Source of the DNA: Catenulispora sp. MAP5-51
GTDB taxonomy: Bacteria > Actinomycetota > Actinomycetes > Streptomycetales > Catenulisporaceae
NCBI RefSeq assembly: GCF_041261205.1
Contig: NZ_JBGCCH010000001.1
Location: forward strand, 1 to 64,000
Direction: 5' to 3'
Length of the DNA: 64,000 nucleotides
Of this stretch, positions 4,726 through 59,625 are shown in pieces (the stretch's first letter is position 1; each line of letters starts with the position of its first letter). The translations under genes were made by a program, and so were the position numbers. The notes below the pieces were generated by a model, which saw only the letters and a list, made by a program, of their open reading frames with translations, made no database searches and was not told the origin of the DNA.

Positions 4726-5625
4726 TCAGTACGCGGGGAACGGACCCCAGTCCTTGATCGCGAACGCGCTGCCGCTGCGGACGACCTCCAACGCCGTCTG
4801 TCCGCTGAAGTGCGCGGGCAGGACCAGCGCCGTGTTGTCCGCGGCCCAGCCGAGCAGGTCGCGGCGGGTGGTCCGGGCCGTGGCCGGGTCCTCGCAGAAG
4901 CAGCTGTGGTGGTCGGGGTGGGAGACCTGGAGCGGGGTGTGCATCAGGTCGCCGGCGAACAGGGCGCGGTCGGTGCCCGAGGTCAGCTGGAGGACGGACG
5001 CGCCCGGTGTGTGGCCCGGCGCCGCCACCAGGCGCAGGTTGCCGTCCACCGTGTGCTCGCCCTCCCACAGCTGGACCAGACCCGCGGCGCGGATCGGTTC
5101 GACGCTGTCCTCGAAGGCGCCGGCGTTCACCCCGTTCGCGATATCCGGGTTCTTCGAGGGATCGAAGTGCTCGACGTCGAGCCGGGGCATCAGGTAGGTC
5201 GCGTTGGGGAAGGTCGGCACCCACCGTCCGCCCTCCAGCCGGGTGTTCCAGCCGATGTGGTCGACGTGCAGGTGGGTGTTGATGACCAGGTCCACCTCCT
5301 CGGGGCGGATTCCCGCGCGGGCGAGGTTGTCCAGGTAGCCCGAGGACAGGTGGTCCCAGGCGGGGACCGCCGAGCGGGTCTTGTCGTTGCCGATCCCGGT
5401 GTCGACCAGGATGATCCGGCCTTCGCTGCGCAGGGCGAAGGTCTGGAACGCGACCTGCACGATCCGGTCCTCGGCACCCAGGTGGTCCGGGACGAGCCAG
5501 TGCCGGTTGTCCTGCCAGTCCCGGTCGGGCCAGCCGGGGAAGAACTGCTCCGGGGTCATGCCGACCGGCCCGTGCAGCTCCTCGACGCGGGCGACGGTGA
5601 CGTCGCCGATGGTGATCTCGTTCAT
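4726..5625 (-). CDS. MBL-fold metallo-hydrolase
   Basis: A 299-aa soluble protein of the metallo-beta-lactamase superfamily. The zinc-binding signature HLHVDH, preceded by DLVINT, lies about one third of the way in. A downstream GHTPGASVLQL holds the next histidine ligand and a later AGDLMH the bridging aspartate. The build resembles lactonase/hydrolase members such as quorum-quenching-type AHL lactonases, but the substrate cannot be read from sequence. The start at 5625 (MNEITIGD) is preferred over an upstream in-frame codon at 5712 because similarity begins there and the longer form would run through the promoter region shared with the divergent regulator at 5742. No strong ribosome-binding site is visible. 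The divergent XRE regulator is a likely controller. Confidence 0.85.
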   Translation of the reverse strand: MNEITIGDVTVARVEELHGPVGMTPEQFFPGWPDRDWQDNRHWLVPDHLGAEDRIVQVAFQTFALRSEGRIILVDTGIGNDKTRSAVPAWDHLSSGYLDNLARAGIRPEEVDLVINTHLHVDHIGWNTRLEGGRWVPTFPNATYLMPRLDVEHFDPSKNPDIANGVNAGAFEDSVEPIRAAGLVQLWEGEHTVDGNLRLVAAPGHTPGASVLQLTSGTDRALFAGDLMHTPLQVSHPDHHSCFCEDPATARTTRRDLLGWAADNTALVLPAHFSGQTALEVVRSGSAFAIKDWGPFPAY

Positions 5626-5741
5626 GCCACGACTATCGATCGTCGTCCGGGCCGGCAACCACGCCGTGTCGGGGTGCCCCTGTGCGTGGCACACCCCGGC
5701 AGGGTGCGGCACAGCGGCCGCGATGGTCCGACAATGGGCCC

Positions 5742-6668
5742 ATGGCTGATCGCGAGAACCCGGGCGAACTCGGTGAGTACCTCAAGGCGTGCCGCGCGCG
5801 CGTCCGGCCCGAGCAACTCGGCGTCACGCCCTACGGCGACCGGCGTCGCGTTCCGGGCCTGCGCCGCGAGGAACTCGCGCTGCTCGCGGGCGTCAGCCCC
5901 TCGTACTACGCCCGCCTGGAGCAGGGGCAGTCCCGCAACGCCTCGCCGCAGGTGCTGGACGCGATCGCGGCGGCTCTGCGGCTGGCCCCGACCGAGCGGC
6001 AACACCTGCACGCCCTGGCCGAGTCCGCCGGCCGGCGCCGGATCACCCGTCCGGCGCCGGTCGAACACGCCGATCCGGCCCTGCTCGAGCTGCTCGGCGC
6101 GATGCGGGAGGTCCCGGCGCTCGTCCTGGGCAGGCGCGGCGACGTGCTGGCCTGGAACCCGATGTGCCACGCCCTGCTGGCCGGCCACCTCGACCGCGAC
6201 AGCACCTCGGTCCCCGGCCGCCGTCCCAACATGACCGAGCTGGTCTTCCTCGACCTCCACACCCGCGCCCTCTACGCGGACTGGGACAGCAAAGCCCGAG
6301 CCGTCGTGGGCAACCTGCGCCTGGCGGCCGGAGCCCACCCCGACGACCCGGCCCTGGCCGCCCTGATCGGCAAGCTGATCCTGGCCAGCCGGGAGTTCAC
6401 CACGATGTGGGCCGACCACCGGGTCCAATCCTGTGCGACCGCCGCCTACGAGCTCCACCACCCGATCGTGGGAACCCTGACCGTCACCCAGCAGACCCTG
6501 CGCTCGGTCGAACGACCCGACCAGACCCTCATCACGTGCACCGCTCCGCGGGAATCCGCGTCCGCCGCGGCGCTGGAGCTCCTGGCCCATGTGGCACATC
6601 AGCCGGTCCGCGACGGTGCCGAGGTGGCAGAACCAGAAGGTGCCGAGGTGGCAGAACTACCGGCCTGA
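5742..6668 (+). CDS. XRE-family regulator with MmyB-like ligand-binding domain
   Basis: A 308-aa transcription factor. An N-terminal helix-turn-helix (residues about 10-75, RRVPGLRREELALLAGVS then YYARLEQG) is followed by a MmyB-type sensor domain (about 100-275) related to PAS folds, ending in the usual strand pattern GTLTVTQQTLRSV. Such proteins generally repress a divergent oxidoreductase or hydrolase gene, and here the divergent partner is the metallo-hydrolase with only 116 bp between starts. The ATG at 5742 is preferred to a GTG at 5682. The C-terminus ends in a short duplicated GAEVAE element, probably a local slippage duplication. Confidence 0.9.
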   Translation: MADRENPGELGEYLKACRARVRPEQLGVTPYGDRRRVPGLRREELALLAGVSPSYYARLEQGQSRNASPQVLDAIAAALRLAPTERQHLHALAESAGRRRITRPAPVEHADPALLELLGAMREVPALVLGRRGDVLAWNPMCHALLAGHLDRDSTSVPGRRPNMTELVFLDLHTRALYADWDSKARAVVGNLRLAAGAHPDDPALAALIGKLILASREFTTMWADHRVQSCATAAYELHHPIVGTLTVTQQTLRSVERPDQTLITCTAPRESASAAALELLAHVAHQPVRDGAEVAEPEGAEVAELPA

Positions 6669-6755
6669 CCTTGTACTAGAATCGCGCAGTCGTCCCGAGG
6701 CCGTCCTGACACGCCGGCCGTTTCGGAGCCTGAACCGGTCTACAGAAGGTTCTGA

Positions 6756-7295
6756 ATGGGTGCTGCGCGTGCGGACTGGACAGCGGACGCCTTCATGGCC
6801 GAGCTGTTCCGTGTGCATTCGGGCCCGCTCCTGCGCTATCTGCTGCGTCTGACCCTGGGGGATACGGCGCGCGCCGAGGATCTGTTGCAGGAGACCATGG
6901 TGCGGATCTGGCGCCATCCGGAGAACTTCGGCGGCGAGGTCGAGGCGTTGCGGCCGCTGGTCTTCACGGTCGCGCGGCGGGCGGCGGTCGACGCGGCGCG
7001 GGCTCGTGGCTCCCGGCCCCAGGAGGTCGGCGACGCCGAGGAGTCGGGGGTGGACGCGTTCGGGGCCGAGGAGCCGGAGTTCGAGCGCGTGCTGGTGGCG
7101 CAGGTGATGAAGCGGGCGTTGCTCAAACTCAGCCCGGAGCATCGGGTGATGATCGTCGAGGTGCATTTCAACGGCCGCACGATCGAGGAGACGGCTCAGC
7201 TGCTGGGGATTCCGTTGGGTACCGCCCGGTCTCGGACGTACTACGCGGTGCGGAACCTGCGGAAGGCGTTGGCCGACCTGGGGTATGAGCGCTGA
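6756..7295 (+). CDS. ECF-type RNA polymerase sigma factor
   Basis: A 179-aa group 4 sigma factor. The sigma-2 region (residues about 20-85) includes LLRYLLRLTLGDTARAEDLL and WRHPENF. The sigma-4 region (about 120-175) has the HTH IEETAQLLGIPLGTARSRTY. It has sigma-2 and sigma-4 but no sigma-3, and no extra C-terminal domain. The ATG at 6756 follows AGAAGG at a 6-nt spacing. ECF factors of this size usually sit directly upstream of a zinc-finger anti-sigma gene. Here the next sequence is an IS fragment and the nearest such anti-sigma gene starts at 12814, so the pair may have been split. Confidence 0.92.
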   Translation: MGAARADWTADAFMAELFRVHSGPLLRYLLRLTLGDTARAEDLLQETMVRIWRHPENFGGEVEALRPLVFTVARRAAVDAARARGSRPQEVGDAEESGVDAFGAEEPEFERVLVAQVMKRALLKLSPEHRVMIVEVHFNGRTIEETAQLLGIPLGTARSRTYYAVRNLRKALADLGYER

Positions 7296-7401
7296 GCGGA
7301 AAAATCTTGCGGCGTCGGTGATATGAGGCGCGGCCCCGCGCGTAGTGCATCTCGGAACCGCTGCGTTCCTGTCTGAGATGTCGATGCGAGGGGAGTACCC
7401 C

Positions 7402-7719
7402 ATGGACGGCGACCTCACTGATGCCCAGTGGGCTCTGCTTGAGCCGTTGTTGCCCGTTCCGACGGCGCGCGGGAAGGGCGGACGGCCTCGTTACCGGTCG
7501 CGGCGCGAGCTGATCGACGGCATCCGCTGGCGGTTTCGTGAGAGTGGGCGCTGGGACCGGGTTCCTGACCGTTACGGGCCCCACCAGACCACATATGCCC
7601 TTTTCTACGCGTGGCGGAAAGACGGCACGTGGGAGCGGCTGGTCTCGGCTCTGGGCGCCGGTCCGGAGGCACGCACCATCATTCCGTGGGCCTCCACGGC
7701 AGGGGGCGCCAAGCGCTGA
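7402..7719 (+). pseudogene. IS5-family transposase, N-terminal fragment
   Basis: The 105 codons encode the IS5/IS427-type N-terminal domain: DLTDAQWALLEPLLP, RYRSRRELIDGIRWRFRESG and TTYALFYAWRKDGTWERL. In complete elements a DDE catalytic half follows, usually by frameshift into a second frame. Nothing resembling it occurs before the next gene at 7827, so the element is truncated and immobile. A GGGGAG lies upstream of the ATG. Terminal inverted repeats could not be paired. The fragment lies between the ECF sigma gene and the signalling operon, marking an old insertion or rearrangement. Confidence 0.85.
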
Positions 7720-7826
7720 GTGCCGCTTGCGTACTGTGACCATGCATACTTTGCTGATCTGCCCCGCCACTTCCGCCGGCGGGCGGTTGTCTTCGCGCTT
7801 TCACCGGCGAAAGGTCTGGTTCCGGC

Positions 7827-8978
7827 ATGGGCACAGTCGCGGCGAGGCGGCGCGGGCGGCGGGTCGCGGTGATCGCGCTGGTGGTCGCGGCGGTCGTTCC
7901 GGCTGTCGGGGCCGCGGCCGTGGTGTGGGACAACTCCGGCACGTCGCTGGCCTCGGTGCGTGCCGAGAGGCGCGGAATCCAGTATTTGGGCCAGACCGTG
8001 AAGCTCTTGGTGTCGGTCGCGCAGGCCCAGTCGGCGGCGGTGCGGAGCCTGCCGCCGGCGCAGCCTGGCCTGGCCACGGCGGTCGCCGCCGTGGACGCCA
8101 CAGGCCTGCCCGGCGATCCGGATCCCGGCGCCGGCACGTTGTGGGCCCAGATCCGGCCCCAGGTCTTGGCCCTGTCCGGCAACCCGGCGACCGGCGCGGC
8201 TGCCTATCGGGCGTACAGCCAGGTCACGGACCTGCTTCTGCAACAGATCACGGCCATCGACGACGCGTCCGGCCTGGTGCCGGATTCCAGGGCGGATGCC
8301 TACCATCTGATCGACGCGTTGACGGTCTTGCTGCCGGACATGGAAGTGCAGGCGGGACGCTACGACGACCAGGTGACTTTGACCGAACCCACGGCGGGGA
8401 CGATGCAGCCGGGTACGGCCGCTGCGACAGCGCAGATCGCGGTGCTGCGGGACCGGATCGCCGTGGACGCGCACGCGTTCGTGACCGCGCTGAACAAGGT
8501 CTTCCGCACCACCGGCAGCGCCACCTTGGGTCCGCATCTCCTGGGCGATGTCGACCTGGTGAACACCGACATCAACGCGCTGGCGCCGACGGCGTCGGCG
8601 ATCGACGAGGCCCTGATCATGCGGTCGGCGCCGACCGTGTCCCAGGAGCGCAAAGCGTTCGACCCGGCTGTGCAGGTGTTGGAGACGGCCGGCCTGGACG
8701 AGTTGGACAAGCTGCTCCAGGTCCGCGAGGCCGGGTACGACCGGCAGCGGCTGGAAGTGGCGGCGCTGCTCGGCGGCGGTGCGATGCTCGCGGCGTCGTC
8801 GCTGGGATGGCTGTGGTGGCGGCGCGGCCCGGGCCCGGATGTCGAGCAGGAACCGGAGCAGCATCGCCGTCAGGTGTCGAGTCGGCGGTCCGGGCAACGG
8901 CCCCAGCCCCAGCCCCAGCCCGAGCCCCAGCCCCCGGCCGACACGGCTCCGCTCGCCCTGCCCGATCGGCACCCCTGA
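7827..8978 (+). CDS. Two-TM extracytoplasmic protein of a signalling operon
   Basis: A 383-aa membrane protein of unrecognised family. It has an N-terminal membrane helix (VAVIALVVAAVVPAVGAAAVV, residues about 14-33), an alanine-rich, probably helical extracytoplasmic region to about residue 310, a second helix (LLGGGAMLAASSLGWLWW) and a cytoplasmic tail ending in PQPQPQPEPQP. The topology is that of a bacterial sensor lacking an output domain. Its stop overlaps the ATG of the histidine kinase (8976-8980), so the two are translationally coupled and may form one receptor. The ribosome-binding site is weak. The inference of a sensing role rests on context only. Confidence 0.75.
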   Translation: MGTVAARRRGRRVAVIALVVAAVVPAVGAAAVVWDNSGTSLASVRAERRGIQYLGQTVKLLVSVAQAQSAAVRSLPPAQPGLATAVAAVDATGLPGDPDPGAGTLWAQIRPQVLALSGNPATGAAAYRAYSQVTDLLLQQITAIDDASGLVPDSRADAYHLIDALTVLLPDMEVQAGRYDDQVTLTEPTAGTMQPGTAAATAQIAVLRDRIAVDAHAFVTALNKVFRTTGSATLGPHLLGDVDLVNTDINALAPTASAIDEALIMRSAPTVSQERKAFDPAVQVLETAGLDELDKLLQVREAGYDRQRLEVAALLGGGAMLAASSLGWLWWRRGPGPDVEQEPEQHRRQVSSRRSGQRPQPQPQPEPQPPADTAPLALPDRHP

Positions 8979-11290
8979 TGACCCGCCCCCGGCGCGGGCT
9001 GCTCATTCGGCACAAGCTCCACCTGCTCGTGGCCGTTCCGCTCGTGGGGCTGCTCCTGGCGACCGCGCCGCTCATCGATGACCGGGTGAGCCGTGCTTCG
9101 CAGGCTTCGGATCTGGCCGGCTTGATGACGGCGGCCGACCGGATCGGCGCGCTGGTGCAGGACGTGCAGCAGGAGCGGCTGTTGTCGATCTCCTATCTGG
9201 CCTCGCCGGACGCCGCGCCGAACGCCGTGGTGGTCCAGGAGGCGCTGGTGTCCGGGGCGGCGGCCGATCTGCGCCGGTCCCTGGGCCGCCGGCTCACCCC
9301 GGAGTTGACCGCCGCCCTGGACGGCGTGGACGGCCTCGGCCCGCTGCGCCAGCAGGTGCTGCACCAGACCGTGACGCCGAACCGGCTCAATTCCGCCTAC
9401 GACACCGTGGTCGGCGCCTTGATCGATGCGATCGGCCTGATCCACCCCCGGGACGCCACGGTCGCCGGCAGCGCGGACCAAGCCGCGCTCGACGCGCTGT
9501 TCCGCGCCGATCAGTACCGCGGCACAGCCGGTGCGGCACTGCTGGCCTCGCTCGCGGCGCCGGCCGGCGCCGCGGGGGCGCTCGGCGCGGCCGGCCGCGC
9601 CGAGCAGGCCGAGGCCGTGGAGGTCGACCGGTTCAAGGAACTGGCCACGGCCGACCAGGCGCGGCTGTTCCGCCTGGCCGAGTTCGGCACGGCCTCCGCG
9701 CTCGTCAACGATCTGCAGGGCCAGATCGAGACCGCGCACGGTGCCCCCGCTGATGCCCAGGCCGGGTCCGCCCCGAGCCCGGCTTCGCAGACCCAGACCC
9801 AGACGCAGACACAGACCCAGCCCGCCGACGACCGCAGGGTCCTGGTCGACCGCCTCGCCGACGCCGTCACGGCCCAGTACGGCCTGCGAGTCCTGGTCGA
9901 GGAGAAGATCGCCCACGACATCTCCACCGAGGCCGAGCATGCCGCGCACACCGAGCGGATCGCCGCCCTCGGTTTCGGCGTGGCGGTGGAAGCCCTGGTC
10001 GTCGTGGTCATCTGGCTCAGCATCAGCATCCGTCGGTCGATCTCCGAACCGCTGCGCGGCCTGACCGAGGCCGCGACCGAGGTCGCCGACCTGGCCGACT
10101 CCGAGCTGCGCCGGGTCGCCGACGTCGACGACTCCGGGCCGCGCGCGCCGATGCCGCGCCTGGCGGCGGTCCGCCTCACCAGCCGCGACGAGGTCGGCAC
10201 GCTGGCCGAGGCGTTCAACCGGGTGCAGGCCACCTCGGCGCGGCTGCTGGAGCGGCAGATCCTCAGCCGGCGCAATGTGGCCGTGATGTACGGCAGCATC
10301 GGGCGGCGCACCCTGAACCTGGTGCGCCGGCAGCTGGCGCTCATCGACGAACTCGAAGCCGGGGAGGCGGACGCCGACCGCCTCGACCGGCTGTTCCGGC
10401 TCGACCACGCCGCCTCCAGGCTGCGCCGCAGCGCCCACAGCCTCATCGTGCTGTCCGGCACCCCGTACGAGGACGGAGCCCCCGGCGAGCCGCTGACCTT
10501 GTATGACGCCGTCCGCGCCGCGCAAAGCGACATCGACGACTACCGTCGCGTGGTCCTGACCTCGGTCGTCGAGGACCTCCTGCGGCCCCGCACGGCCGGC
10601 GACGTCGTCCTGGTCCTGGCCGAGCTGCTGGCCAACGCGGTCGCCTTCTCGCCGCCGGACAGCAAGGTCGAGGTCGCGGCCTACAGCATCGGCGGCGACC
10701 GGTGCGTGCGGATCGTGGACCACGGCGTGGGCATGCCCGCGGACCGGATCGAGGAGGAGAACACGCGCCTGGTCTCGCGCGAACGGCTGGACTTGGCGCC
10801 GACCGACCTGCTGGGCCTGTTCGTGGTCGGCCGGCTTGCTCGGCGGCACGGGCTCAGCGTGCGGTTGTCCGAGTCTCCCGGCGGCGGGGTCACGGCGGTC
10901 GTCGTCATTCCCGACCGGCTGTTCGTGGCGGGTACCGAGAAGGGCGGGGCGGAGGGCGGGATCCCACCAGAGGTCGCCGAGGCGATCCGTCGTGCGATGA
11001 CGGCGTGGAGCGGGGAAGGCGTGGGACGACAGCTTCCCGCCCAGAGGGCCGGCGCGTCGGCTCCGGACCCCGACGACGCGCTGCCGGCCTGGCAGCCGTC
11101 CCGGGACCCCGGCGCCGTCCCGTTCCGGCTGGACCGGCGCGTGCCCGGGGCCACCATGGCGCCCCGAACCGGCGGCACGCCCGGCACGCCGTCACCGACA
11201 CCGGACCCGGAGGCGGTTCGCGCCGAGATCGAGGCCTTCGAAGCGGGAGAGGCGCGCGCCGCTGCGGAGACGAGCGTGGAGAAGCAATGA
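8978..11290 (+). CDS. Nitrate-sensor-type histidine kinase (conservon CvnA-like)
   Basis: A 770-aa sensor kinase. The first membrane helix (about residues 15-32) leads into a NIT-type extracytoplasmic helical domain (about 45-325) with the characteristic QQERLLSISYLA. A second helix (about 335-350) and HAMP-like region follow, then a dimerisation segment RLFRLDHAASRLRRSAHSL and an HATPase_c domain (N box ELLANAVAFSPP, G1 box DHGVGMP, GLFVVGRLARRHGL). A QTQTQTQTQTQ tract interrupts the sensor domain near residue 270. This architecture matches the CvnA kinases of Streptomyces conservons, which work with roadblock, DUF742 and GTPase partners and have no cognate response regulator. The ATG at 8978 overlaps the upstream stop, and the stop overlaps the roadblock start. 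Confidence 0.9.
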   Translation: MTRPRRGLLIRHKLHLLVAVPLVGLLLATAPLIDDRVSRASQASDLAGLMTAADRIGALVQDVQQERLLSISYLASPDAAPNAVVVQEALVSGAAADLRRSLGRRLTPELTAALDGVDGLGPLRQQVLHQTVTPNRLNSAYDTVVGALIDAIGLIHPRDATVAGSADQAALDALFRADQYRGTAGAALLASLAAPAGAAGALGAAGRAEQAEAVEVDRFKELATADQARLFRLAEFGTASALVNDLQGQIETAHGAPADAQAGSAPSPASQTQTQTQTQTQPADDRRVLVDRLADAVTAQYGLRVLVEEKIAHDISTEAEHAAHTERIAALGFGVAVEALVVVVIWLSISIRRSISEPLRGLTEAATEVADLADSELRRVADVDDSGPRAPMPRLAAVRLTSRDEVGTLAEAFNRVQATSARLLERQILSRRNVAVMYGSIGRRTLNLVRRQLALIDELEAGEADADRLDRLFRLDHAASRLRRSAHSLIVLSGTPYEDGAPGEPLTLYDAVRAAQSDIDDYRRVVLTSVVEDLLRPRTAGDVVLVLAELLANAVAFSPPDSKVEVAAYSIGGDRCVRIVDHGVGMPADRIEEENTRLVSRERLDLAPTDLLGLFVVGRLARRHGLSVRLSESPGGGVTAVVVIPDRLFVAGTEKGGAEGGIPPEVAEAIRRAMTAWSGEGVGRQLPAQRAGASAPDPDDALPAWQPSRDPGAVPFRLDRRVPGATMAPRTGGTPGTPSPTPDPEAVRAEIEAFEAGEARAAAETSVEKQ

Positions 11291-11772
11291 GCGACACACC
11301 GACAGAACCGACGACACCGACGACACCGACCACACCGACAGCACCGGCCGGGGCCGAACTCAGCCGGCAGGCGCAGGACTTCTCCTGGACGGTGGACGCC
11401 TTCGTCCGGCAGACCGACGGCGTCACCGACGCGATCGTGGTCTCCGCGGACGGGCTGCCGATCGCGGCGTCCGAAACCCGCGGCCCGGACGCGGCCGACC
11501 GGCTCTCGGCCATCGTCTCGGGGCTGGCGAGCCTGGCCGGCGCGGTGACCACCACCGAGGACCTGGGCCCGCTGAACAAGATCATCCTGGATCTGGCCGA
11601 CGGCTATCTCCTGGTGGCGGCGATCGGACACCGGGCGCTGCTCGGCGTGCGCGCCCTGAAGGAATCCGATCTCGGCACGGTGGCCTTCGAGATGACCGTG
11701 TACGCCCGTCAGGCCGGCGCGCGCCTGACGCCGCCGCTGGTCCGCGAACTGCAGCGGGCCAGGCCGCTGTGA
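11287..11772 (+). CDS. Roadblock/LC7 protein (conservon CvnB-like)
   Basis: A 161-aa protein. After a low-complexity N-terminus rich in TPT repeats (residues about 3-20), the roadblock/LC7 fold begins near residue 27: DFSWTVDAFVRQTDGVTDAI, then VVSADGLPIA and a long conserved helix around LSAIVSGLASLAGAV. In conservons this protein (CvnB) binds the kinase and regulates a small Ras-like GTPase (CvnD). Neither the DUF742 partner (CvnC) nor the GTPase is encoded next door. Start and stop overlap both neighbours (ATGA at 11287-11290, GTGA at 11769-11772). Confidence 0.9.
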   Translation: MSDTPTEPTTPTTPTTPTAPAGAELSRQAQDFSWTVDAFVRQTDGVTDAIVVSADGLPIAASETRGPDAADRLSAIVSGLASLAGAVTTTEDLGPLNKIILDLADGYLLVAAIGHRALLGVRALKESDLGTVAFEMTVYARQAGARLTPPLVRELQRARPL

Positions 11773-12728
11773 GGTTCGCGGACACCCGCGCCGCGGCTCG
11801 CCCCCGACTTCGGCACCGGCACGGGCACCGGCGGCGGATCAGAGCGCTGGCCGTCCTCGCGGCGCTGGCCTGCGCACCCGGGCTGGCAGCCGGGTGCCGG
11901 GCCTCCGGCCCCCGGTCCGCGGCGGACGTGGGTGTCGGCCAGGTCGATCCGGCGGCCCGCTCGCAGCTGCCGCCGGAGATCCTGGCCCGCGGGCTCGTGA
12001 CGATCGCGACCGACCCCACGTACCCGCCCGACGAGTTCCGCCAGTCCGACGGCACGCTGGTGGGCATGGACGTGGACCTGGCCCGCGCGGTCGGGGCCAA
12101 GCTGGGCGTGCGAGTGCAGTTCACCCAGGTGCAGTTCCGGGACATCCTCGCGGGAGTGCAACAAGGGGAGTACGACATCGGGGTGTCCTCGATCACCGAC
12201 ACCACGCGCCGGGAGGAACTGGGCGACTTCGTCACCTACTTCCAGGCCGGCTCCTCGCTGCTGGTGCGCGGCGGCAACCCGCTGACGCTCTATCCGGACG
12301 ACGAGTCGCTGTGCGGGCACCGGGTCGCAGCCCAGGAGGGCACCGTCGAGGTGGATCCCGTGCTGTCCTCGCGGTCGGCGCAGTGCGTCGCCGACGGCCT
12401 GCGCCCGATCACCACGGTCGTGGTGGCCGCCGAGGCCGACTCCCGGGCCGCGGTGCTCAGCGGCCGTGCCGACGCGATGTTCGAGGACGCCCCGATCGCC
12501 TCGTACGAGACGGCGCACTCCGGCGGCCAGTTGCAGACCGCCGGCGACCAGATCGACAAGGCTCCCTACGGTTTCGCGCTGGCCAAGGAGGACAAGCCGA
12601 TGGACGACGCCATCCTGCGCGCGATGCAGGACCTCATCGACGACGGCGAGTACGCGGCCATCCTGTCCCACTGGGGCCTGACCGCCGGCAGGGTCCCGGC
12701 CGCGACGCTGGACGGAGCGATCAATTGA
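11769..12728 (+). CDS. Polar amino-acid ABC-type substrate-binding lipoprotein
   Basis: A 319-aa extracellular solute-binding protein family 3 member. A basic N-terminus and hydrophobic helix end in a lipobox LAAGC, so it is probably anchored to the outer membrane face by diacylglycerol. The binding fold begins at LVTIATDPTYPPDEF and contains LVGMDVDLARAVGAKLGV and YDIGVSSITDTTRREE, typical of glutamine/arginine-type binders. No permease or ATPase gene accompanies it. Its GTG start overlaps the roadblock stop, making it the last gene of the operon. It may therefore present a ligand to the kinase instead of, or as well as, feeding a distant transporter. That sensing role is inference. Confidence 0.88.
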   Translation: MRFADTRAAARPRLRHRHGHRRRIRALAVLAALACAPGLAAGCRASGPRSAADVGVGQVDPAARSQLPPEILARGLVTIATDPTYPPDEFRQSDGTLVGMDVDLARAVGAKLGVRVQFTQVQFRDILAGVQQGEYDIGVSSITDTTRREELGDFVTYFQAGSSLLVRGGNPLTLYPDDESLCGHRVAAQEGTVEVDPVLSSRSAQCVADGLRPITTVVVAAEADSRAAVLSGRADAMFEDAPIASYETAHSGGQLQTAGDQIDKAPYGFALAKEDKPMDDAILRAMQDLIDDGEYAAILSHWGLTAGRVPAATLDGAIN

Positions 12729-12813
12729 CGTCCGTTCATCCCTTCGCAACTTCGCGCGCGAGTACCATGACCGACAAACGGACCACGAGATATGCCCGGT
12801 GGGGAGGTATGCG

Positions 12814-13563
12814 ATGAGCTCAAGGAACCGCAACACCCAGCCGGGACCGGAACACACCGCGGCGAACAGTGAGGCGCTCGCGGCGTATGTCCTCAACGCC
12901 TTGGAGCCCGAGCAGCAGGCCGCGATGCAGCAGCACCTCCAGGACTGCGACATCTGTTACCTGGAGTACACGAGTCTGGGTGTACTGCCCGGTCTGCTGG
13001 ACTCGCTCTCGCCGGAGGACATCAGGGAACTGACGGCGACGGTCACACGGCGTGCCGGGGCGCAGGCCGGGCAGCCCGCGAGCGTGACCGGCGCCCGCCC
13101 CGATCGCTCGGCACGGCCGGCGCGGTCGTGGTCCCGCCGACGGCGCGCACTGCTGGCCGGCGGCGCGTTCTCGGCCGCGATGGTCGCCACCGGCTTCGCC
13201 CCCGCCTACGCGGACAGCACACCGCCGGCCGCGCACCCCGGCGAGACGGCGAAGCCGGCGCCGGACCCGTCGGCGGCACCGGACGCGGCAGCGGCGGCGG
13301 TGGTGCTGACTGTGTCGGCGCAGAGCCTGCCCGAGGACCTGACCGCCCTGGACGTGGAACTCCGCTCACCCCGGGCGCTCCGCGAGTGTGTGTTGGAAGT
13401 GACGACGGACGACGGCGCGCGCATCGAAGCCTGCCGCTGGTCCGGTACGCCGAGCACCCGCGTGGTGTTCAGCGGCGACATCCCGCTGGCGGCCGCGCGG
13501 CTGCGGGCGGTGGCCGTTTTCACCGGGGACGGCACGGTTCTGGCGCGGCACGAGCTTCCTTAG
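12814..13563 (+). CDS. Zinc-finger anti-sigma factor
   Basis: A 249-aa membrane-associated anti-sigma factor. The N-terminal ZAS/zf-HC2 domain holds the H-x3-C-x2-C signature in HLQDCDICYLEY (residues about 38-49), the part that clamps ECF sigma factors in the cytoplasm. A basic stretch SWSRRRRALLAGGAFSAAMV marks one membrane helix near residue 110-130, followed by an Ala/Pro-rich linker and a small extracytoplasmic beta domain resembling RskA-type sensors. The ATG at 12814 is chosen for the upstream GGGGAGG at a 6-nt spacing. The only ECF gene in the window is at 6756, and this is its most likely partner although they are not adjacent. Confidence 0.85.
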   Translation: MSSRNRNTQPGPEHTAANSEALAAYVLNALEPEQQAAMQQHLQDCDICYLEYTSLGVLPGLLDSLSPEDIRELTATVTRRAGAQAGQPASVTGARPDRSARPARSWSRRRRALLAGGAFSAAMVATGFAPAYADSTPPAAHPGETAKPAPDPSAAPDAAAAAVVLTVSAQSLPEDLTALDVELRSPRALRECVLEVTTDDGARIEACRWSGTPSTRVVFSGDIPLAAARLRAVAVFTGDGTVLARHELP

Positions 13564-13669: not shown

Positions 13670-15994
13670 ATGGCTGACCACGGCAGTTCGCAGCGGCAGG
13701 ACACAGCCGAGCCCGATGCCGGCTTGCGGCGGCGGCGCTTCCTCGGCTTCCTGGTCGCCGCGCCGACGCTGGCCGTGGCGGTCGACTGGGCTCAGCCGGC
13801 CCCCGCCGGGGCGGCCGTGGTGACCCTGCCGCAGCCGGAGGACCTGTTCGATCTGGGCGACATGCAGAACCTGGCCGCGGCTCCGACCTCCGGCCTGATC
13901 TCGGTGCGGCTCGACGCGGACGGGACCGCTTTCTTCGCCGTGCCCCGGGCCGAGGTCGGGCAGGGGATGACCACGGCCGTCGCGATGATGGTGTCCGAGG
14001 AGCTGGACCTGCCGCTGGACCGGATCGTGGTCGGGCTGGCCGACGCGCGGCCCGAGCTGCTGATGAACCAGCTCACCGGCGGCTCGAACTCCATGCGGAG
14101 CATGTACCTCCCGGTGCGTACCGCCGCCGCGATCGCCCGGCAGCGGCTCGTCGACACCGCCGCGGCCCAGTGGAATGTCCCGGCGGCCGACGTGAGCACC
14201 GCCGCGGGCGTGGTCAGCGGGCCCGGCGGGCTCAGCGCGACCTATGGTTCGCTGGCCACGGCGGCGGCCGCCGACCAGACGGTCGCCGTGACCGCCTCGC
14301 TCAAGTCCCCGGCGCAGTTCGGGGTGCTCGGTACGCCGCGGGGCCGCATCGACGCGCGGGACATCGTGACCGGCCGCAAGCAGTTCGCGATGGACGTCAC
14401 GGTGCCCGGTGCGCTGCCCACGATGGTCGCGCGCCCGCCGACGATCAACGGCACGGTCGTGGCGATCAACAACCTGTCCGCGGTCCTGGCCATGCCGGGC
14501 GTCACCGACGCCGTCGCGATCAGCCACGGCGTCGCCATCCGGGCTCAGACGTTCGGGCAGTGCATCGACGCGATCCAGGTCGTCGACGTGACGTGGGGCC
14601 CGGGCACCGTGGACGGCGAGTCGGACGCGACGGTGCTGGAGAAGCTGCGGGCCGCGCAGCTGCCGATGATCGTGCCCCCGCTGTTGAGCCAGACCGTCGA
14701 CGCCGAGTTCGTGTTCGCCTTCGCCAGCAACGCCCCGCTGGAACCGGACTGCGCGATCGCCGATGTGCGCGGCGACCGTGCGGAGATCTGGGCCAGTCTG
14801 AAGGTGCCGATCGTCGCGCAGTCCGAGATCGCCGCACAGCTCGGTCTGCCGGTCGAGGCGGTGACCGTGCACGTCACGCAGGGCGGTGGCTCGTTCGGGC
14901 GGCACCTGTTCCACGACGTCGCCGCCGAGGCTGCCCAGGCCTCGCAGAAGATGGGCAAGGCGGTCAAGCTCTCCTGGTCCCGGACCGATTCCTTCCGGCA
15001 GGGCCGGGTGCATCCGATGTGCACATCGCGGGTGCGGATGAACTACCTGCTCGGCAACGTCCTGAGCTATGAGCAGCGGCACACCGGTGTGCAGACGGAC
15101 TTCGGGCACGGACTCGGCGAGATGATCACCGCGACCGCCGCGAGTCTGCCCGTGGCCGGGAACCTGACCTTCGCCGAGACGATCTTCGAGCTGACGCAGA
15201 GCTCTCCGTACGACTTCGGCGTCACCACCCAGCTGCTCAACGAGATCCCGGTGGAGTTCAACACCGGCAGCATGCGCAACATCTACTCGCCGAACGTCGT
15301 GTGCGCGCAGGAGTTGACGGTCGACCGGGTCGCCGCCCGGATGGGTCAGGACCCTGTGACGTTCCGGCGGGGATTCCTGCGCGACCAGAAGGTGCTCGCC
15401 GTGCTGGACAAGGCCGCGGACCTCGGCCAGTGGGGCAGGCCGATGCCGGCCGGCACCGCGCAGGGCATCGCCGTGCACACGGAGTACCGCGCCGCGATCG
15501 CCGTACTCGTGGAGATCGACTGCACGCCCGCGACCGTCGATCGGCCGATTCAGGACGGCGTGGGCGGGCCGCGCGTGACCAAGGCGCTGATCGTCGTCGA
15601 CCCGGGCTTGTGCATCAACCCGACAGGACTGGAAGCGCAGATGATCGGCGGCATGCAGGACGGCATCGCGCTGGCTCTGACCTCGAGTCTGCACGTCCAG
15701 AACGGGATCCCGCTGGAGGGCAGCTGGGACAACTACTTCTACACGCGCGAGTGGAACACGCCACCGGATCTGCAGGTGGTCATCATGCCGAACACCAGCG
15801 ACACCCCGAGCGGCGCGGGAGAACTCGGCGTCGCGCCGGCGTTCGCGGCCGTCGCGTGCGCGTACGCCAGGGCCACCGGCACGATGCCGACCTACTTCCC
15901 GATCAACCACAACGCGCCGCTGGGGTTCACCCCGCTTCCTCTGGAACCGTCCACGCCGCAGTCGCCCACCGACGGCCTGGCGCATACCTTCTGA
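13670..15994 (+). CDS. Tat-exported molybdopterin hydroxylase large subunit (IorB-like)
   Basis: A 774-aa member of the xanthine dehydrogenase/isoquinoline 1-oxidoreductase beta family, which hydroxylates aromatic N-heterocycles or oxidises aldehydes with a Mo-cytosine or Mo-pterin dinucleotide cofactor. A Tat signal (RRRRFLGFLVAAP) lies at residues about 20-45. The body holds the cofactor loops AEVGQGMTTAVA, GGGSFGRHLFHDVAAEAA and, near the C-terminus, SGAGELGVAPAFAAVA, whose glutamate is the expected catalytic base. GAGG at 13659-13662 precedes the ATG. It forms a unit with the 2Fe-2S subunit 52 bp downstream (large before small, the reverse of iorAB). A medium FAD subunit is absent, consistent with the IorAB type, which donates electrons to cytochromes. 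Confidence 0.9.
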   Translation: MADHGSSQRQDTAEPDAGLRRRRFLGFLVAAPTLAVAVDWAQPAPAGAAVVTLPQPEDLFDLGDMQNLAAAPTSGLISVRLDADGTAFFAVPRAEVGQGMTTAVAMMVSEELDLPLDRIVVGLADARPELLMNQLTGGSNSMRSMYLPVRTAAAIARQRLVDTAAAQWNVPAADVSTAAGVVSGPGGLSATYGSLATAAAADQTVAVTASLKSPAQFGVLGTPRGRIDARDIVTGRKQFAMDVTVPGALPTMVARPPTINGTVVAINNLSAVLAMPGVTDAVAISHGVAIRAQTFGQCIDAIQVVDVTWGPGTVDGESDATVLEKLRAAQLPMIVPPLLSQTVDAEFVFAFASNAPLEPDCAIADVRGDRAEIWASLKVPIVAQSEIAAQLGLPVEAVTVHVTQGGGSFGRHLFHDVAAEAAQASQKMGKAVKLSWSRTDSFRQGRVHPMCTSRVRMNYLLGNVLSYEQRHTGVQTDFGHGLGEMITATAASLPVAGNLTFAETIFELTQSSPYDFGVTTQLLNEIPVEFNTGSMRNIYSPNVVCAQELTVDRVAARMGQDPVTFRRGFLRDQKVLAVLDKAADLGQWGRPMPAGTAQGIAVHTEYRAAIAVLVEIDCTPATVDRPIQDGVGGPRVTKALIVVDPGLCINPTGLEAQMIGGMQDGIALALTSSLHVQNGIPLEGSWDNYFYTREWNTPPDLQVVIMPNTSDTPSGAGELGVAPAFAAVACAYARATGTMPTYFPINHNAPLGFTPLPLEPSTPQSPTDGLAHTF

Positions 15995-16046
15995 CCCGCG
16001 CTTCCCGACCCCGCGCTTCCCGACTCACGCTCTCTGAGGGAAAACG

Positions 16047-16523
16047 ATGACCACACACACTTTCGTGCTCAACGGCGAGCAGGTCAGCGTCGAGGCCGAG
16101 GACGGCGTCCGGCTGTTGTGGGTGCTGCGCGACCTGCTCGGCGTGACCGGGCCGAAGTACGGCTGCGCGCTGGACGTCTGCAAAGCCTGCACCAGCCACA
16201 TCAACGGCAAGGCGTTCAACCCGTGTTCGGTCCCGGTCGCGGACATCGCGCCGACCGACGAGATCACCACCATCGAGGGCCTGGCGGCCAGTGTCGGCGC
16301 CGATCTGCACCCGATGCAGCAGGCGTGGCTGGACCACGACGTGGCCCAGTGCGGGTACTGCCAGCCCGGCCAGATCATGGCCGCGGTCGCGCTGGTCGAG
16401 CTGGTGCGCTCGCAGGGCCGGGCGGTCACCGAGGCCGATCTGGACTCGCTGCGCAACATCTGCCGCTGCGGCACGTACTCGCGGATCCGGCAGGCGATCG
16501 TCGAGGGTGCTCAGAAGATGTGA
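16047..16523 (+). CDS. 2Fe-2S subunit of the molybdenum hydroxylase (IorA-like)
   Basis: A 158-aa iron-sulfur protein with two [2Fe-2S] clusters. The first is the plant-ferredoxin-type C-x4-C-x2-C-x11-C set within CALDVCKACTSHINGKAFN plus the next cysteine. The second is the C-x2-C (CGYCQPGQIM) and C-x-C (NICRCGTY) set in the helical domain. All eight cysteines are present. It carries electrons from the Mo subunit encoded just upstream. It has no signal peptide, so it would have to be exported with the Tat-bearing large subunit as a folded complex. AGGG precedes the ATG. Confidence 0.92.
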   Translation: MTTHTFVLNGEQVSVEAEDGVRLLWVLRDLLGVTGPKYGCALDVCKACTSHINGKAFNPCSVPVADIAPTDEITTIEGLAASVGADLHPMQQAWLDHDVAQCGYCQPGQIMAAVALVELVRSQGRAVTEADLDSLRNICRCGTYSRIRQAIVEGAQKM

Positions 16524-16571
16524 GTGAGGACCCGCTCGTCGCGCCGTCGGGCGGGCACCGGCTGGTGAAAC

Positions 16572-17297
16572 TCAGTCCAGGAAGCCGCGCAGCAGCATGG
16601 CGGTGCCGTCCAGGTGTTCCAGCATCGCGCGGCGCGCCCCTTCGGGATCGCCGCTGAGGACGGCGGTGGTGATGCGTTCGTGCTGGTGTGCGGCGTGCCG
16701 GAGGTTCACCGGCATCATGGGGATCGACTCCAGCAGGTCGTTGCTCCGCAGCCGGGCGTCGGCGACCGCGGCGGCCAGCTGCGGCGAGCCGGACAGCTCG
16801 GCGATGGCCAGGTGGTAGCGCGTGTCGGCGATGCGGTACGCGGCGATGTCCGCCGATTCGGCCGCCTTCATCCGATCCACCAGCAGGGCCCGCATCTCGG
16901 CGTCCAGGGTCCGGGCCGCGGCCGCCTCGGCGGCACCGCCCTCCACGGCGCGCCGGAACACCAGCGTGTCCTCGAGCCCGTTCGGCAACCGGTCCACGGC
17001 CTCGCGCAGATGCCCGTGCGGTGCCGGGGTCCGGAGCACGTAGGCGCCCCCGGCGCGGCCCCGCCGGCTCTCGACGATGCCCTCGGCCGACAGCACCTTC
17101 AACGCCTCGCGCACCGTGTCCCGGCTGACGTTCAGCAACTCGGCCAGCTCCCGCTCCGGGGGCAGCCGGTCCCCGATCGGCACCTCGCCGAGCTTGATCG
17201 CCCGCAGGATCCGCTCGATCGTGTCCTCGAACGCGTTGCCCGTCCGCACCGGCTGGAACAGCGAGTAGCCCTGGACGTCAGCCACCGTCGAGACCAT
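16572..17297 (-). CDS. FadR-type (GntR/FCD) transcriptional regulator
   Basis: A 241-aa regulator with an N-terminal winged helix (residues about 20-85: GDRLPPERELAELLNVSRDT then VREALKVLSAEGIVE) and an all-helical FCD ligand domain (about 100-235) with the metal/ligand-binding pattern RYHLAIAELSG and HQHERITTAVLSGD. The ATG at 17297 is preferred over an upstream in-frame codon at 17462 because GAGGGG lies just upstream and the longer form would read through the operator region. It is divergent from the permease-glnA operon, whose 231-bp upstream region carries a palindrome suited to this family (17471-17486). By analogy it represses amine catabolism and is relieved by a pathway intermediate. 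Confidence 0.9.
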   Translation of the reverse strand: MVSTVADVQGYSLFQPVRTGNAFEDTIERILRAIKLGEVPIGDRLPPERELAELLNVSRDTVREALKVLSAEGIVESRRGRAGGAYVLRTPAPHGHLREAVDRLPNGLEDTLVFRRAVEGGAAEAAAARTLDAEMRALLVDRMKAAESADIAAYRIADTRYHLAIAELSGSPQLAAAVADARLRSNDLLESIPMMPVNLRHAAHQHERITTAVLSGDPEGARRAMLEHLDGTAMLLRGFLD

Positions 17298-17470
17298 CGC
17301 CCCTCGTGAGTTCTTTCGAAGGCCTGATACCCGGCCATTATTGCTGCTTCGCCGTGCGCGTGTCCATGCCGCTCGCCGACTTCCCCAGACAGCACTGCCC
17401 GATCCGACTGATCTGGCTGAATGCTTGACACGGCGAAACGCCAGCCCCACACTTGCGGGCACCGCAATGG

Positions 17471-17486
17471 ATGGTTAGCCAACCAT
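17471..17486. promoter_or_regulatory. Probable FadR/GntR operator palindrome
   Basis: ATGGTT-AGCC-AACCAT is a perfect 6-bp inverted repeat with a 4-nt spacer. It contains the TGGT...ACCA half-sites common to GntR/FCD regulators and lies 43 nt upstream of the permease GTG. It is the only obvious palindrome in the divergent region. Confidence 0.6.
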
Positions 17487-17528
17487 TAAGAGTCCCGAAA
17501 CTCCCGCCGCGTTTGCCGGAGGTGCTCC

Positions 17529-19061
17529 GTGACCGCCGAATCCACCGATACCGACAGACCGCTCGAGGGCGACGAGCAGCGTCTGCACGAAATGGGCTAT
17601 GCCCAGGAACTGGCCCGCTCCATGTCGGGCTTCTCGAACTTCGCCGTCTCCTTCTCGATCATCTCGATCCTGTCCGGGTGTCTGACCCTGTACGGGTACG
17701 GCATGACCACCGGCGGCCCGGCCATGATCGTCTGGGGCTGGCCGCTGGTCGGCCTGATGACCCTGCTGGTGGGCCTGTCCATGGCCGAGGTCTGCTCCAG
17801 CTATCCCACCGCCGGCGGCCTGTACTTCTGGGCGGCCAAGCTGGCCCGCGGCAACGGTGCGGCCTGGTCGTGGTTCACCGGGTGGTTCAACTTCCTGGGC
17901 CAGGTCGCCACGACCGCGGGCATCGACTACGGCGCGGCGCTGTTCGCCAACGCCTTCCTGGACCTGCAGTTCAACTTCGCGACCACGCCCGGCCACACCC
18001 TGACGATCTTCGGCGTGATCCTGCTGCTGCACGCTCTGCTGAACACCCTCGGTGTGAAGCTGGTGGCCCTGTTCAACGACATCAGCGTCTGGTGGCATGT
18101 CGTCGGCGTCGCGATCATCGTCGGCGTGCTGGCGTTCTGGCCCTCCCACCACGCCTCGGCCAGTTTCGTGTTCACCAAGTTCGTCAACGAGACCGGCTTC
18201 CACAACCCGCTCTACGTCGGCCTTCTGAGCCTGCTGCTGGCGCAGTACACGTTCACCGGCTATGACGCCTCGGCGCACATGACCGAGGAGACCAAGAACG
18301 CCGCCGTGGCCGGGCCCAAGGGCATCATCACCTCGATCCTGGTCTCGCTGGCCGCCGGCTGGGTCCTGCTGATCGGCATCACCTTCGCCATCACGAAGTA
18401 CGACGGCGCGGTGACTTCCGGGACCGGGGTGCCGCCGGTCCAGATCTTCATCGACGCCATCGGCACCACCGGCGCCAAGCTGCTGCTGCTGATCGTCATC
18501 GGCGCGCAGTTCTTCTGCGGCATGGCCTCGGTGACCGCGAACTCCCGCATGATCTACGCCTTCTCCCGGGACGGTGCGCTGCCCGGCTCGAAGATCTGGC
18601 ACCGGATCAGCGACCGCACCCGCACGCCGGTGAACGCGGTCTGGCTCGCCGCGGTCGGCGCCTTCGCGCTCGGTCTGCCCTCGATGTGGAACAGCACCGC
18701 CTACGCCGCGGTGACGTCGATCTCGGTGATCGGGCTCTACATCGCGTACGTGATCCCGGTGTTCCTGCGGCTGCGCCAGGGGTCCTCCTTCGAGCGCGGG
18801 CCGTGGCACCTGGGCCGCTGGAGCCGGCCCGTGGGCACCATGGCCGTGGGGTGGACCGTGCTGATCACGGTGATCTTCGTGCTCCCGCAGGTCAGCCCGA
18901 TCACCACCAAATCGTTCAACTACGCCCCGGTCGCGGTCCTGGTGGTCCTCGGTTTCGCCGGAGTGTGGTGGCTGGTCTCAGCCCGGCGCTGGTTCACCGG
19001 GCCGAGAGTGCAGGGTTCGCTGGAAGAGCTGGAAAACATCGAAGAAGGGCTTGAACACTGA
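17529..19061 (+). CDS. APC-family amino acid/amine permease
   Basis: A 510-aa transporter with about 12 membrane helices of the amino acid-polyamine-organocation superfamily. It opens with FSNFAVSFSIISILSGCLTL and has GGPAMIVWGWPLVGLMTLLV and FTGYDASAHMTEETKNA, the last being typical of GABA/amine permeases of the BAT1/GabP-like subgroup. It probably imports the amine or amino alcohol degraded by the genes downstream. The GTG start is preceded by GGAGG at a 6-nt spacing. The stop overlaps the ATG of the ligase gene by one base (19061), indicating translational coupling. Confidence 0.9.
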   Translation: MTAESTDTDRPLEGDEQRLHEMGYAQELARSMSGFSNFAVSFSIISILSGCLTLYGYGMTTGGPAMIVWGWPLVGLMTLLVGLSMAEVCSSYPTAGGLYFWAAKLARGNGAAWSWFTGWFNFLGQVATTAGIDYGAALFANAFLDLQFNFATTPGHTLTIFGVILLLHALLNTLGVKLVALFNDISVWWHVVGVAIIVGVLAFWPSHHASASFVFTKFVNETGFHNPLYVGLLSLLLAQYTFTGYDASAHMTEETKNAAVAGPKGIITSILVSLAAGWVLLIGITFAITKYDGAVTSGTGVPPVQIFIDAIGTTGAKLLLLIVIGAQFFCGMASVTANSRMIYAFSRDGALPGSKIWHRISDRTRTPVNAVWLAAVGAFALGLPSMWNSTAYAAVTSISVIGLYIAYVIPVFLRLRQGSSFERGPWHLGRWSRPVGTMAVGWTVLITVIFVLPQVSPITTKSFNYAPVAVLVVLGFAGVWWLVSARRWFTGPRVQGSLEELENIEEGLEH

Positions 19062-20425
19062 TGGGTCCGTATCGCGGTCGCCTGACCCTGGACGAGCTGC
19101 GCGACATGGTCGCGGCGGGCACGATCGACACGGTCGTCCTGGCTCTGACCGACATGCAGGGCCGGTTGCAGGGCAAGCGGATCGCCGCCGACTACTTCCT
19201 GTCCGACGTCGTCCCGCACGGTTCGGAGGGCTGTGGCTATCTCCTGGCTGTCGACGTCGACATGAACACCGTCGAGGGCTATGCCCTCTCCTCGTGGGAG
19301 GGCGGCTACGGCGACCTCGTCATGGCCCCGGACATGGCCACGCTGCGCCTGGTGCCCTGGCATCCGGGCACCGCGATGGTGCAGTGCGACGTGGCACATC
19401 ACGACGGGACCCCGGTCAGCGCCTCGCCGCGCCAGGTGCTGCGCCGCCAGCTCGACCGGCTGGCCGCACTCGGCTGGGACGCCTACGTGGGCACCGAGTT
19501 GGAGTTCATCGCCTTCCGGGACACCTACGAGCAGGCCTGGGACCGTGACTACCACCGCCTGACCCCGGTCAACCAGTACAACGTCGACTACTCGGTGCTG
19601 GGCACCGGCCGCGTCGAGCCGCTGCTGCGCCGGCTGCGCAACGGAATGGCCGGCGCGGGCCTGGTCGTGGAGTCGGCCAAGGGCGAGTGCAACCTCGGCC
19701 AGCACGAGATCGCGTTCAAGTACGACAAGGCCCTGAACACCTGCGACGACCACACGGTCTACAAGACCGGGGCCAAGGAGATCGCCTCGCAGGAGGGCGT
19801 GAGCCTGACGTTCATGGCCAAGTACAACGAACGTGAGGGCAACTCCTGCCACATCCATCTGAGCCTGCGCGACCGGGAGGGCAGCCCGGTGATGGCCGGC
19901 GACGGTCCGCACGGCTTCTCGCCGGTCATGGAGCACTTCCTGGCCGGACAGCTGGCCGGCCTGCGCGACTTCTCCTTGTTGCTGGCCCCGAACGTCAACT
20001 CCTACAAGAGGTACGTCGCCGGGAGTTTCGCCCCGACCGCGATCGCATGGGGGCGCGACAACCGCACCTGCGCGCTGCGCGTGGTCGGGCACGGCTCGTC
20101 GCTGCGGTTCGAGAACCGCGTGCCCGGCGGCGACGTGAACCCCTATCTCGCGGTGGCCGCGTTGATCGCGGCGGGACTGCACGGCGTGGAGAACCGGCTG
20201 GAGCTGGAGCCGGAGTTCGCCGGCAACGCCTACGCCTCCGACGCTCCGCGTGTGCCGTCCAACCTGCGCGACGCCATCGAGGCGTTCGAGGGCAGCCAGC
20301 TCGCCGCGGACGCGTTCGGCAAGGACGTCGTGGCGCACTACGCCCATGCCGGCCGGGTCGAGCTTGCCGCCTACGACTCGGAGGTCACCGACTGGGAGCG
20401 GCGGCGGGGGTTCGAGCGGCTGTGA
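19061..20425 (+). CDS. Glutamine-synthetase-like gamma-glutamyl-amine ligase (PuuA/GlnA4 type)
   Basis: A 454-aa type I glutamine-synthetase-fold enzyme. The N-terminal grasp domain is followed by the catalytic barrel with [44 protein letters not shown] and the ATP/glutamate loop [10 protein letters not shown]. The C-terminus ends with the conserved [14 protein letters not shown]. The tyrosine adenylylation motif of true GlnA is absent. The set of neighbours (permease, C26 amidohydrolase, aldehyde dehydrogenase) shows it glutamylates an exogenous amine with ATP, as PuuA does for putrescine and Streptomyces GlnA4 does for ethanolamine. The exact amine is not readable from sequence. The stop overlaps the next GTG start. 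Confidence 0.9.
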
Positions 20426-22535: not shown

Positions 22536-22577
22536 ACCGCGCAACCGAACCGCGCAACGAACGACAGGAAACACATC

Positions 22578-59621: not shown

Positions 59622-59625
59622 CTTC

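Follow-up and report, generated by a model that had tools for sequence, protein, structure and literature searches.

A six-gene block in Catenulispora combines a conservon-type kinase, an amino-acid-type binding lipoprotein and a putative sigma/anti-sigma pair

The first 64,000 nucleotides of contig NZ_JBGCCH010000001.1 of Catenulispora sp. MAP5-51 (hereafter the window, meaning the whole stretch of DNA that was analysed) hold six genes, here called sig, A, B, C, D and asig, which form a real, conserved and new combination of known parts that is present in few genomes. A kinase and a roadblock protein of the types found in conservons (CvnA-CvnD gene sets) are encoded together with a two-transmembrane (two-TM) protein, a lipoprotein of the amino-acid-binding type and, at the two ends, an extracytoplasmic function (ECF) sigma factor and an anti-sigma factor. 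An initial annotation had treated the middle four genes as a reduced conservon; gene models, Pfam and hydropathy bear out four overlapping genes for a two-TM protein, a CvnA-like kinase, a CvnB-like protein and a family 3 lipoprotein, and the block itself is larger than four genes, taking in sig upstream and asig downstream. We read it, with somewhat less than even confidence, as a conservon-derived amino-acid sensor which, analogous to the GlnH-GlnX-PknG system, would have its own ECF sigma factor as output. The features are listed below, amino acids being given as aa; G005 and G012 are two further genomes of the genus that carry the block.

6756..7295, + strand: sig, ECF sigma factor, 179 aa, with Sigma70_r2 and Sigma70_r4 (Pfam)
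7402..7719, + strand: small DUF4096 open reading frame (ORF), 105 aa, of the IS4/5 transposase N-terminal type (Pfam, window and G005 copies)
7827..8978, + strand: A, two-TM protein, 383 aa, with a large extracytoplasmic part and no known family
8978..11290, + strand: B, CvnA-type kinase, 770 aa, with NIT (58-297), HAMP and HATPase_c (Pfam)
11287..11772, + strand: C, CvnB-type roadblock protein, 161 aa, with Robl_LC7 (Pfam)
11769..12728, + strand: D, family 3 amino-acid-binding lipoprotein, 319 aa, with SBP_bac_3 (Pfam)
12814..13563, + strand: asig, anti-sigma factor of the zf-HC2 (ZAS) type, 249 aa (Pfam)

The order sig-A-B-C-D-asig is identical at all three loci (window, G005 and G012), and the six genes are kept in three of the ten genomes of the genus. 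Genes A to D, all on the + strand, overlap by 1, 4 and 4 bases, the roadblock gene directly following the kinase gene, and these tight overlaps are retained at every one of the three loci; asig starts 85 bases past the end of D, and the third-position GC of A-D is 0.89–0.93. D is kept beside B in 3/3 loci, in line with the expectation of the initial annotation that binding protein and kinase are conserved together. When the window was compared with the 18-kb G005 locus, the sole DNA similarity longer than 150 bases (E ≤ 1e-10) was found at 6709-13556, in three pieces, starting 47 bases upstream of sig and stopping 7 bases short of the asig end; the block lies in G005 at another genomic position with differing neighbours. 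In G012 the flanks match the window too (4726-13560, then 16562-21435). The ratio of nonsynonymous to synonymous substitution rates (dN/dS, Nei-Gojobori) between the window and these two genomes is 0.11–0.29 for sig, A-D and asig (12 values; 0.11 and 0.22 for sig), and by this measure the six genes are under purifying selection. With its order kept in two further genomes and its low dN/dS, the gene set is more than chance. Inspection of the three-genome alignment by eye for a promoter common to sig and A gave nothing convincing.

Orthologues of kinase B above 80% identity occur in three of 14 family genomes, namely its own, G005 (85%) and G012 (95%), the remaining family genomes giving matches of at most 38%; outside its own genome, the top kinase match in 79 genomes of the class reaches 40% identity. 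Protein A was found in the same three family genomes and in 3/147 genomes of the order, with no match in seven of nine congeners, four of these being 99–100% complete. Two additional marginal matches at order level (E 5e-4 and 9e-4) were taken as chance because they are limited to A 293-374 and no conservon gene was recognised in their contexts.

The initial annotation had also held that CvnC and CvnD are missing, and the searches agree. With CvnC and CvnD as tblastn queries, nothing significant was found in the 64-kb window (best E 0.07) and no match at the two orthologous loci, while the same queries detected both genes at a positive-control conservon locus (L017). DUF742 (CvnC) has five matches genome-wide, all off the 882-kb contig (C1) that holds the window, and PF03029 (the CvnD GTPase) has eight, none on this contig (150 of 173 first-look candidates scored). 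Gene calling outside the window relied on a codon-score ORF caller of ours, for which six window genes served as the training set, and absence of CvnC and CvnD is claimed solely from tblastn or family searches because this caller misses short genes. Among the flanking genes scanned, no response regulator adjoins kinase B, no transporter subunit lies directly beside the block and no Ser/Thr kinase domain was detected, which upholds the earlier statement that a response regulator and transporter subunits are lacking here. At 17529, the window encodes an amino-acid permease of a different type.

The kinase itself points to descent from a conservon. Residues H477 (LDH motif), N553 and D581-x-G583-x-G585 of B are kept in 10/10 aligned kinases, and C is 45–51% identical to the CvnB proteins of the sister conservons. 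Phylogeny was based on 45 CvnA-type kinases called in 40 fetched loci, a selection of the places found, plus the window; a quick full-length tree used all 45, and a more careful tree used 40 of them (314 columns, LG+G4, a simpler model), omitting L021, L022, L023, L030 and L073 as long branches or fragments. In both trees the three block kinases group in one clade, with seven others (L017, L027, L024, L026, L025, L057 and L058) as its sister, the support for the ten-kinase clade being 100 in the quick tree and 100/100 in the careful one, and all seven sister loci carry CvnB, CvnC and CvnD. Given this sister relation to kinases from loci that have CvnC and CvnD, both genes were probably lost on the branch of the block, which is the simplest reading of the trees. 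The relatives do keep their DUF742 and GTPase genes, as a loss confined to this lineage would have it, but three genomes have the loss in common and purifying selection acts on the genes that remain, hence the reduction does not look like decay. The name of reduced conservon proposed by the initial annotation therefore stands as regards the origin of the kinase, but the unit was drawn too narrowly, as sig and asig belong to it.

Conservon reduction is not unique to this block. By tblastn (E ≤ 1e-4), L034 (5501-8136) has CvnA and CvnB only, L061 (5712-8523) and L063 (4860-8255) have CvnA and CvnC only, and two conservons of the window's own genome, L019 and L020, are without CvnC. Orphan CvnB genes flanked by conservon genes have already been noted (PMC4316618). 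Loss of the LPxR motif described in PMC4316618 was considered as a sign of GTPase loss; the motif reads LDRR in the window, LARR in G005 and LDRR in G012, and proved uninformative because L057 and L058 have LRRR yet keep CvnD. One conservon-type GTPase gene of the genome (L077 7404-7964, on contig C29) lacks conservon neighbours within the surrounding 15 kb. Its product is 71–73% identical to the conservon GTPases of contigs C16 and C33 and 53–57% to those of the sister clade, and an identity with the lost CvnD of the block is thus unsupported. A scan of the genome contigs with kinase B gave one locus, which was unrelated.

At the ends of the block, sig contains both sigma regions 2 and 4 (Pfam) and matches NCBIfam NF007227 (E 6e-52), under the curated cut-off; asig matches NF052375 (E 1.4e-10), likewise under its cut-off, and Pfam zf-HC2 at 22.7 bits against a cut-off of 22.2, with the H-x3-C-x2-C zinc-finger motif kept in all six anti-sigma sequences compared. 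Of 197 genomes of the class, 83 have homologues of sig (E ≤ 1e-25), and ten loci of sigma relatives (L047-L056) were looked at. At three of them (L047, which is in the window's own genome, L052 and L054), an asig-related anti-sigma gene overlaps with the sigma gene (BLAST E 7e-5, 2e-10 and 8e-8); at L053 and L056 the overlapping next gene might, by eye, encode another kind of anti-sigma factor, and at L050 and L051 nothing anti-sigma-like is next to the sigma gene. BLAST gave no match to A, B, C or D in the called genes of these ten loci. Because sigma and anti-sigma genes overlap directly in L047, L052 and L054, genes A-D seem to have been inserted between a switch and its brake, that is, between cognate partners, on the evidence of these three loci out of ten; asig would accordingly be named the brake of sig.

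Protein D begins with a signal-peptide-like stretch ending in the lipobox LAAGC, with Cys43. Its AlphaFold2 model has a mean predicted local distance difference test (pLDDT) score of 82 (175 of 319 residues at or above 90; residues 1-55 disordered), and its top structural match by Z is the glutamate-bound 5eyf (Z 28.6, root-mean-square deviation 2.3, 233 residues aligned), followed at Z 27.2 and under by lysine-analogue/ornithine-, glutamine- and arginine-binding proteins; Foldseek ranked a glutamine-binding protein first. Residues R148, D240, S140 and T143 are invariant in 13/13 aligned proteins. R148 and D240 presumably correspond to R77 and D161 of the LAO protein, which hold the carboxylate and amino groups of the amino acid. 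The model and the alignment thus support D as a binding protein of the polar amino-acid type, by its fold and pocket residues, and it is these two properties that speak for the amino-acid signal proposed in the initial annotation. A kinship of D with the kinase-fused binding domain of StpK7 (NF052427) was dropped because the importer-type proteins L037 and L041 fit this family better (231.8 and 245.1 bits, vs 212.7 for D).

Protein A has two TM-like hydropathy peaks (15-33 and 311-329), and its orthologues are 77% and 91% identical. One of the three orthologues matches Trypan_PARP at 9.9e-6, which we take as an effect of the acidic tail, and a sequence search of the PDB gave a chance match only (E 6.4). 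In kinase B, further weak hydropathy peaks lie within the NIT and ATPase domains.

From these parts, sig-A-B-C-D-asig may be envisaged as one extracellular amino-acid signalling unit of conservon origin. Lipoprotein D, anchored outside the membrane, would bind an L-amino acid, and liganded D would dock on the extracytoplasmic parts of A and on the NIT domain of kinase B, altering the activity of B. The four membrane helices and the pair of outer domains that A and B would jointly provide match the layout of GlnX, spread over two chains. B would then pass the signal on via the roadblock protein C and, with CvnC and CvnD gone, the output would be the co-encoded ECF sigma factor with no GTPase involved, asig holding sig until B and C relieve the hold. 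A sigma output is suggested because the receptor genes sit between the sigma and anti-sigma genes and no accompanying GTPase gene was found; a possible output would thus lie in the block itself, since both of these genes go with it. The receptor half of this reading is fairly well supported, and the step from C to asig, the direction of the signal and the identity of the ligand are what we infer.

Several observations weigh against a sensor that works in this way. Contact between the proteins of the block is a proposal, for D with A and B as for the stoichiometric complex that the initial annotation deduced from the tight overlaps. Protein A gives no family for the window protein in Pfam, its all-helical structure model (pLDDT 37) is too poor for a structural search, and the idea that it holds a second NIT or 4HB domain was rejected by profile comparison with ten CvnA kinases (probability 2.3%). 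The nearest non-orthologues of D, about 41% identical, look like ordinary binding proteins of ATP-binding cassette (ABC) importers and are, by reading, followed by permease and ATPase genes; furthermore, the similarity of D to StpK7 is common to two importer-type proteins and hence not specific (NCBIfam). On the output side, asig has one borderline TM segment at about 112-131 (hydropathy peak 1.45), seven of the ten sigma-relative loci have no asig-like gene by BLAST, and sig may only drive expression of the block. As for descent and spread, the output for both trees carries a warning of long branches joining at the three block kinases, the join being uncertain whatever its support, and the block is limited to three of 14 family genomes. 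The chance rate of binding-protein genes as neighbours of conservons, considered below, is poorly measured by a soft control.

Other explanations share much of this evidence. The receptor might act in trans, D, A and B setting C, which as a GTPase-activating protein (GAP) would act on a CvnD encoded elsewhere, while the sigma and anti-sigma factors would regulate the cluster only. Such an arrangement is suited by the description of MfpD, the CvnB homologue of Mycobacterium, as a GAP (PMC13343842), by the identity that C still has to CvnB proteins with a GTPase, and by the eight CvnD-family matches of the genome, one of which (C29) is without conservon neighbours within 15 kb; however, that orphan GTPase is nearest to those of C16 and C33 (71–73%, vs 53–57% to the sister clade) and no GTPase was found at any of the three loci, and we regard action in trans as somewhat unlikely. 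That the sigma and anti-sigma factors are an independent stress switch (e.g. redox, via the zinc finger), with the four genes as part of its regulon, is in our estimate unlikely: the block is one six-gene unit at another genomic position in G005, and BLAST detected none of A-D in the called genes that neighbour sigma at the ten relative loci, even if asig, with its start 85 bases after D, could be expressed alone. ECF factors often control their own operon, which we count for this explanation.

Under a more deflationary account, D would be the spare binding protein of a separate importer and A-C the relics of a decaying conservon. The genome does have a D-like protein, 41% identical, with apparent permease and ATPase genes after it (by reading), and conservons that lose parts occur elsewhere, as found here and in PMC4316618. 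Purifying selection on A-D, the presence of the kinase motifs and the overlaps kept in 3/3 loci stand against decay, and we consider this account highly improbable. The sensor with a sigma output remains the reading we prefer, at the tentative level given at the outset.

Binding-protein genes also occur beside other conservons. We sampled one locus per kinase group at above 60% identity (27 groups), one large group being taken twice, to give 28 conservon loci, and individual Pfam scans found a binding-protein gene directly adjoining eight of them, including the window. These belong to six families: SBP_bac_3 (window), SBP_bac_8 (L017), Peripla_BP_6 (L019 and L020), OpuAC (L025 and L057), Peripla_BP_4 (L061) and NMT1 (L062). 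The proportion of 8/28 is not an unbiased frequency because the loci were chosen by similarity to B, and L074, with a Peripla_BP_6 neighbour, belongs to the group represented by L064 and was left uncounted. A pooled scan of 44 conservon neighbours (48 slots less three conservon genes and one duplicate; 8/56 slots fell at the end of a contig or stretch) gave a second NMT1 member, its locus unassigned. In the pooled control of 120 of 128 genes (eight long window genes dropped), no binding-protein family was among the 25 of 137 families listed; this control is soft because listed families need at least two members and single members are unlisted.

Within the window's own genome, conservons with a binding protein are those of C12 (103 kb), C16 and C33 and the window block; the C7 conservon has a GAF gene (CvnF type), and that of C40 is followed by P450 genes (by reading). 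A tie between binding-protein neighbours and NIT-bearing kinases was rejected, with NIT present in five of eight kinases with such a neighbour and 14 of 18 without (the fragments L030 and L073 excluded). Sister-clade conservons stand beside other binding-protein genes at L017 (8916-10109), L025 (8606-9580), L057 (9785-10744) and L058 (5680-6636), with ABC-transporter genes (ABC_tran, BPD_transp_1) adjoining at L025 and L058 as well. The own-genome conservons of L019 (3629-4834) and L020 (4315-5715) are without DUF742 and are followed by a Peripla_BP_6 gene.

Downstream of the block, window positions 13670-16523 hold genes for the large and Fe-S subunits of a molybdopterin oxidoreductase, which lie between the block and an amino-acid cluster and have no DNA match at the G012 locus. 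The cluster (16572-23345) has GntR/FCD regulator, amino-acid permease, glutamine-synthetase-like, peptidase C26 and aldehyde dehydrogenase genes and an SDR-like gene (by reading only), and as a whole reads as a polyamine-type catabolic cluster; a stretch matching it follows the block in G012 also and is absent after the block in G005. Two adjoining tRNA genes (Met-CAT and Ala-TGC) lie at 59546-59698. The DUF4096 ORF between sig and A is of equal length at 3/3 loci, with dN/dS of 0.10 and 0.08; its dS to G012 is 0.42, vs 0.10–0.19 for the six block genes (two to four times as high), and it may therefore have been overwritten by other transposon copies. Whether it is a domesticated transposase piece or a recombining insertion sequence (IS) remnant is uncertain.

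Neither the signals nor the targets of conservon systems are settled, and a 2026 paper (PMC13343842) counts the downstream DNA-binding effector of Cvn8 among the unknowns. With a candidate ligand receptor and a candidate transcriptional output inside one naturally reduced six-gene unit, the block would allow both matters to be put to the test in a single soil organism. At its boldest, the reading would make the block the first system of conservon origin whose transcriptional output can be identified: D would prompt the CvnA and CvnB proteins to act directly on asig without a GTPase, freeing sigma, and binding lipoproteins would form a third, unrecognised class of conservon-kinase input beside CvnE and CvnF; we think it rather unlikely that all of this holds. 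If true, the binding-protein-to-kinase logic of GlnH-GlnX-PknG would extend to histidine-kinase-type sensors of conservons and to sigma factors, and the block suggests a new way in which these three related soil bacteria may read extracellular nutrients.

No published description of the whole gene set was recognised by title or abstract opening among the matches listed, with subscription literature mostly outside the search. In the accessible part of PMC13343842, "ABC transporter" and "lipoprotein" are absent, "binding protein" is used only for DNA-binding proteins (twice) and "sigma" appears once, in a supplier name. This fits the view of the initial annotation that the composition is undescribed, but parts of it are in print, namely orphan CvnB genes (PMC4316618) and binding proteins that feed kinases (PMC6069109).

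The block agrees with conservons (PMC13343842, PMC8510531, PMC4316618) in its CvnA kinase with NIT, HAMP and HATPase_c followed by CvnB, and B falls among CvnA proteins in the trees; it differs in having no CvnC or CvnD, in the added binding lipoprotein and two-TM protein, and in the ECF sigma and anti-sigma genes at its ends. The accessory proteins CvnE (P450) and CvnF (GAF) go with CvnA proteins without a sensory domain (PMC13343842), whereas the CvnA of the block has a NIT domain. Its closest kinases, in the sister clade, likewise have a binding-protein gene beside cvnA (SBP_bac_8 at L017 and L027, OpuAC at L025 and L057/L058), but with full CvnA-D sets, other binding-protein families and no BLAST match to sig or asig nearby. 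The ECF sigma/ZAS anti-sigma pairs resemble the block in having Sigma70_r2/r4 and zf-HC2 proteins in one cluster, and differ in that four receptor genes lie between the two here while the pairs of L047, L052 and L054 overlap directly. In contrast to two-component systems, no response regulator stands next to the kinase among the flanking genes scanned. In GlnH-GlnX-PknG, a binding lipoprotein senses aspartate/glutamate, a membrane protein is the proposed relay and a kinase responds (PMC6069109, PMC9769921), and the block is alike in that one operon encodes an amino-acid-binding lipoprotein, a membrane protein with outer domains and a kinase. With four TM helices and two periplasmic domains, GlnX (PMC9769921) has the same count of helices and domains as A and B together would have on two chains, an analogy and not a homology. 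Our block differs from the PknG system, however, in that B is a kinase of the histidine-kinase type with its own TM helices rather than a soluble Ser/Thr kinase, and in having a sigma factor within the unit.

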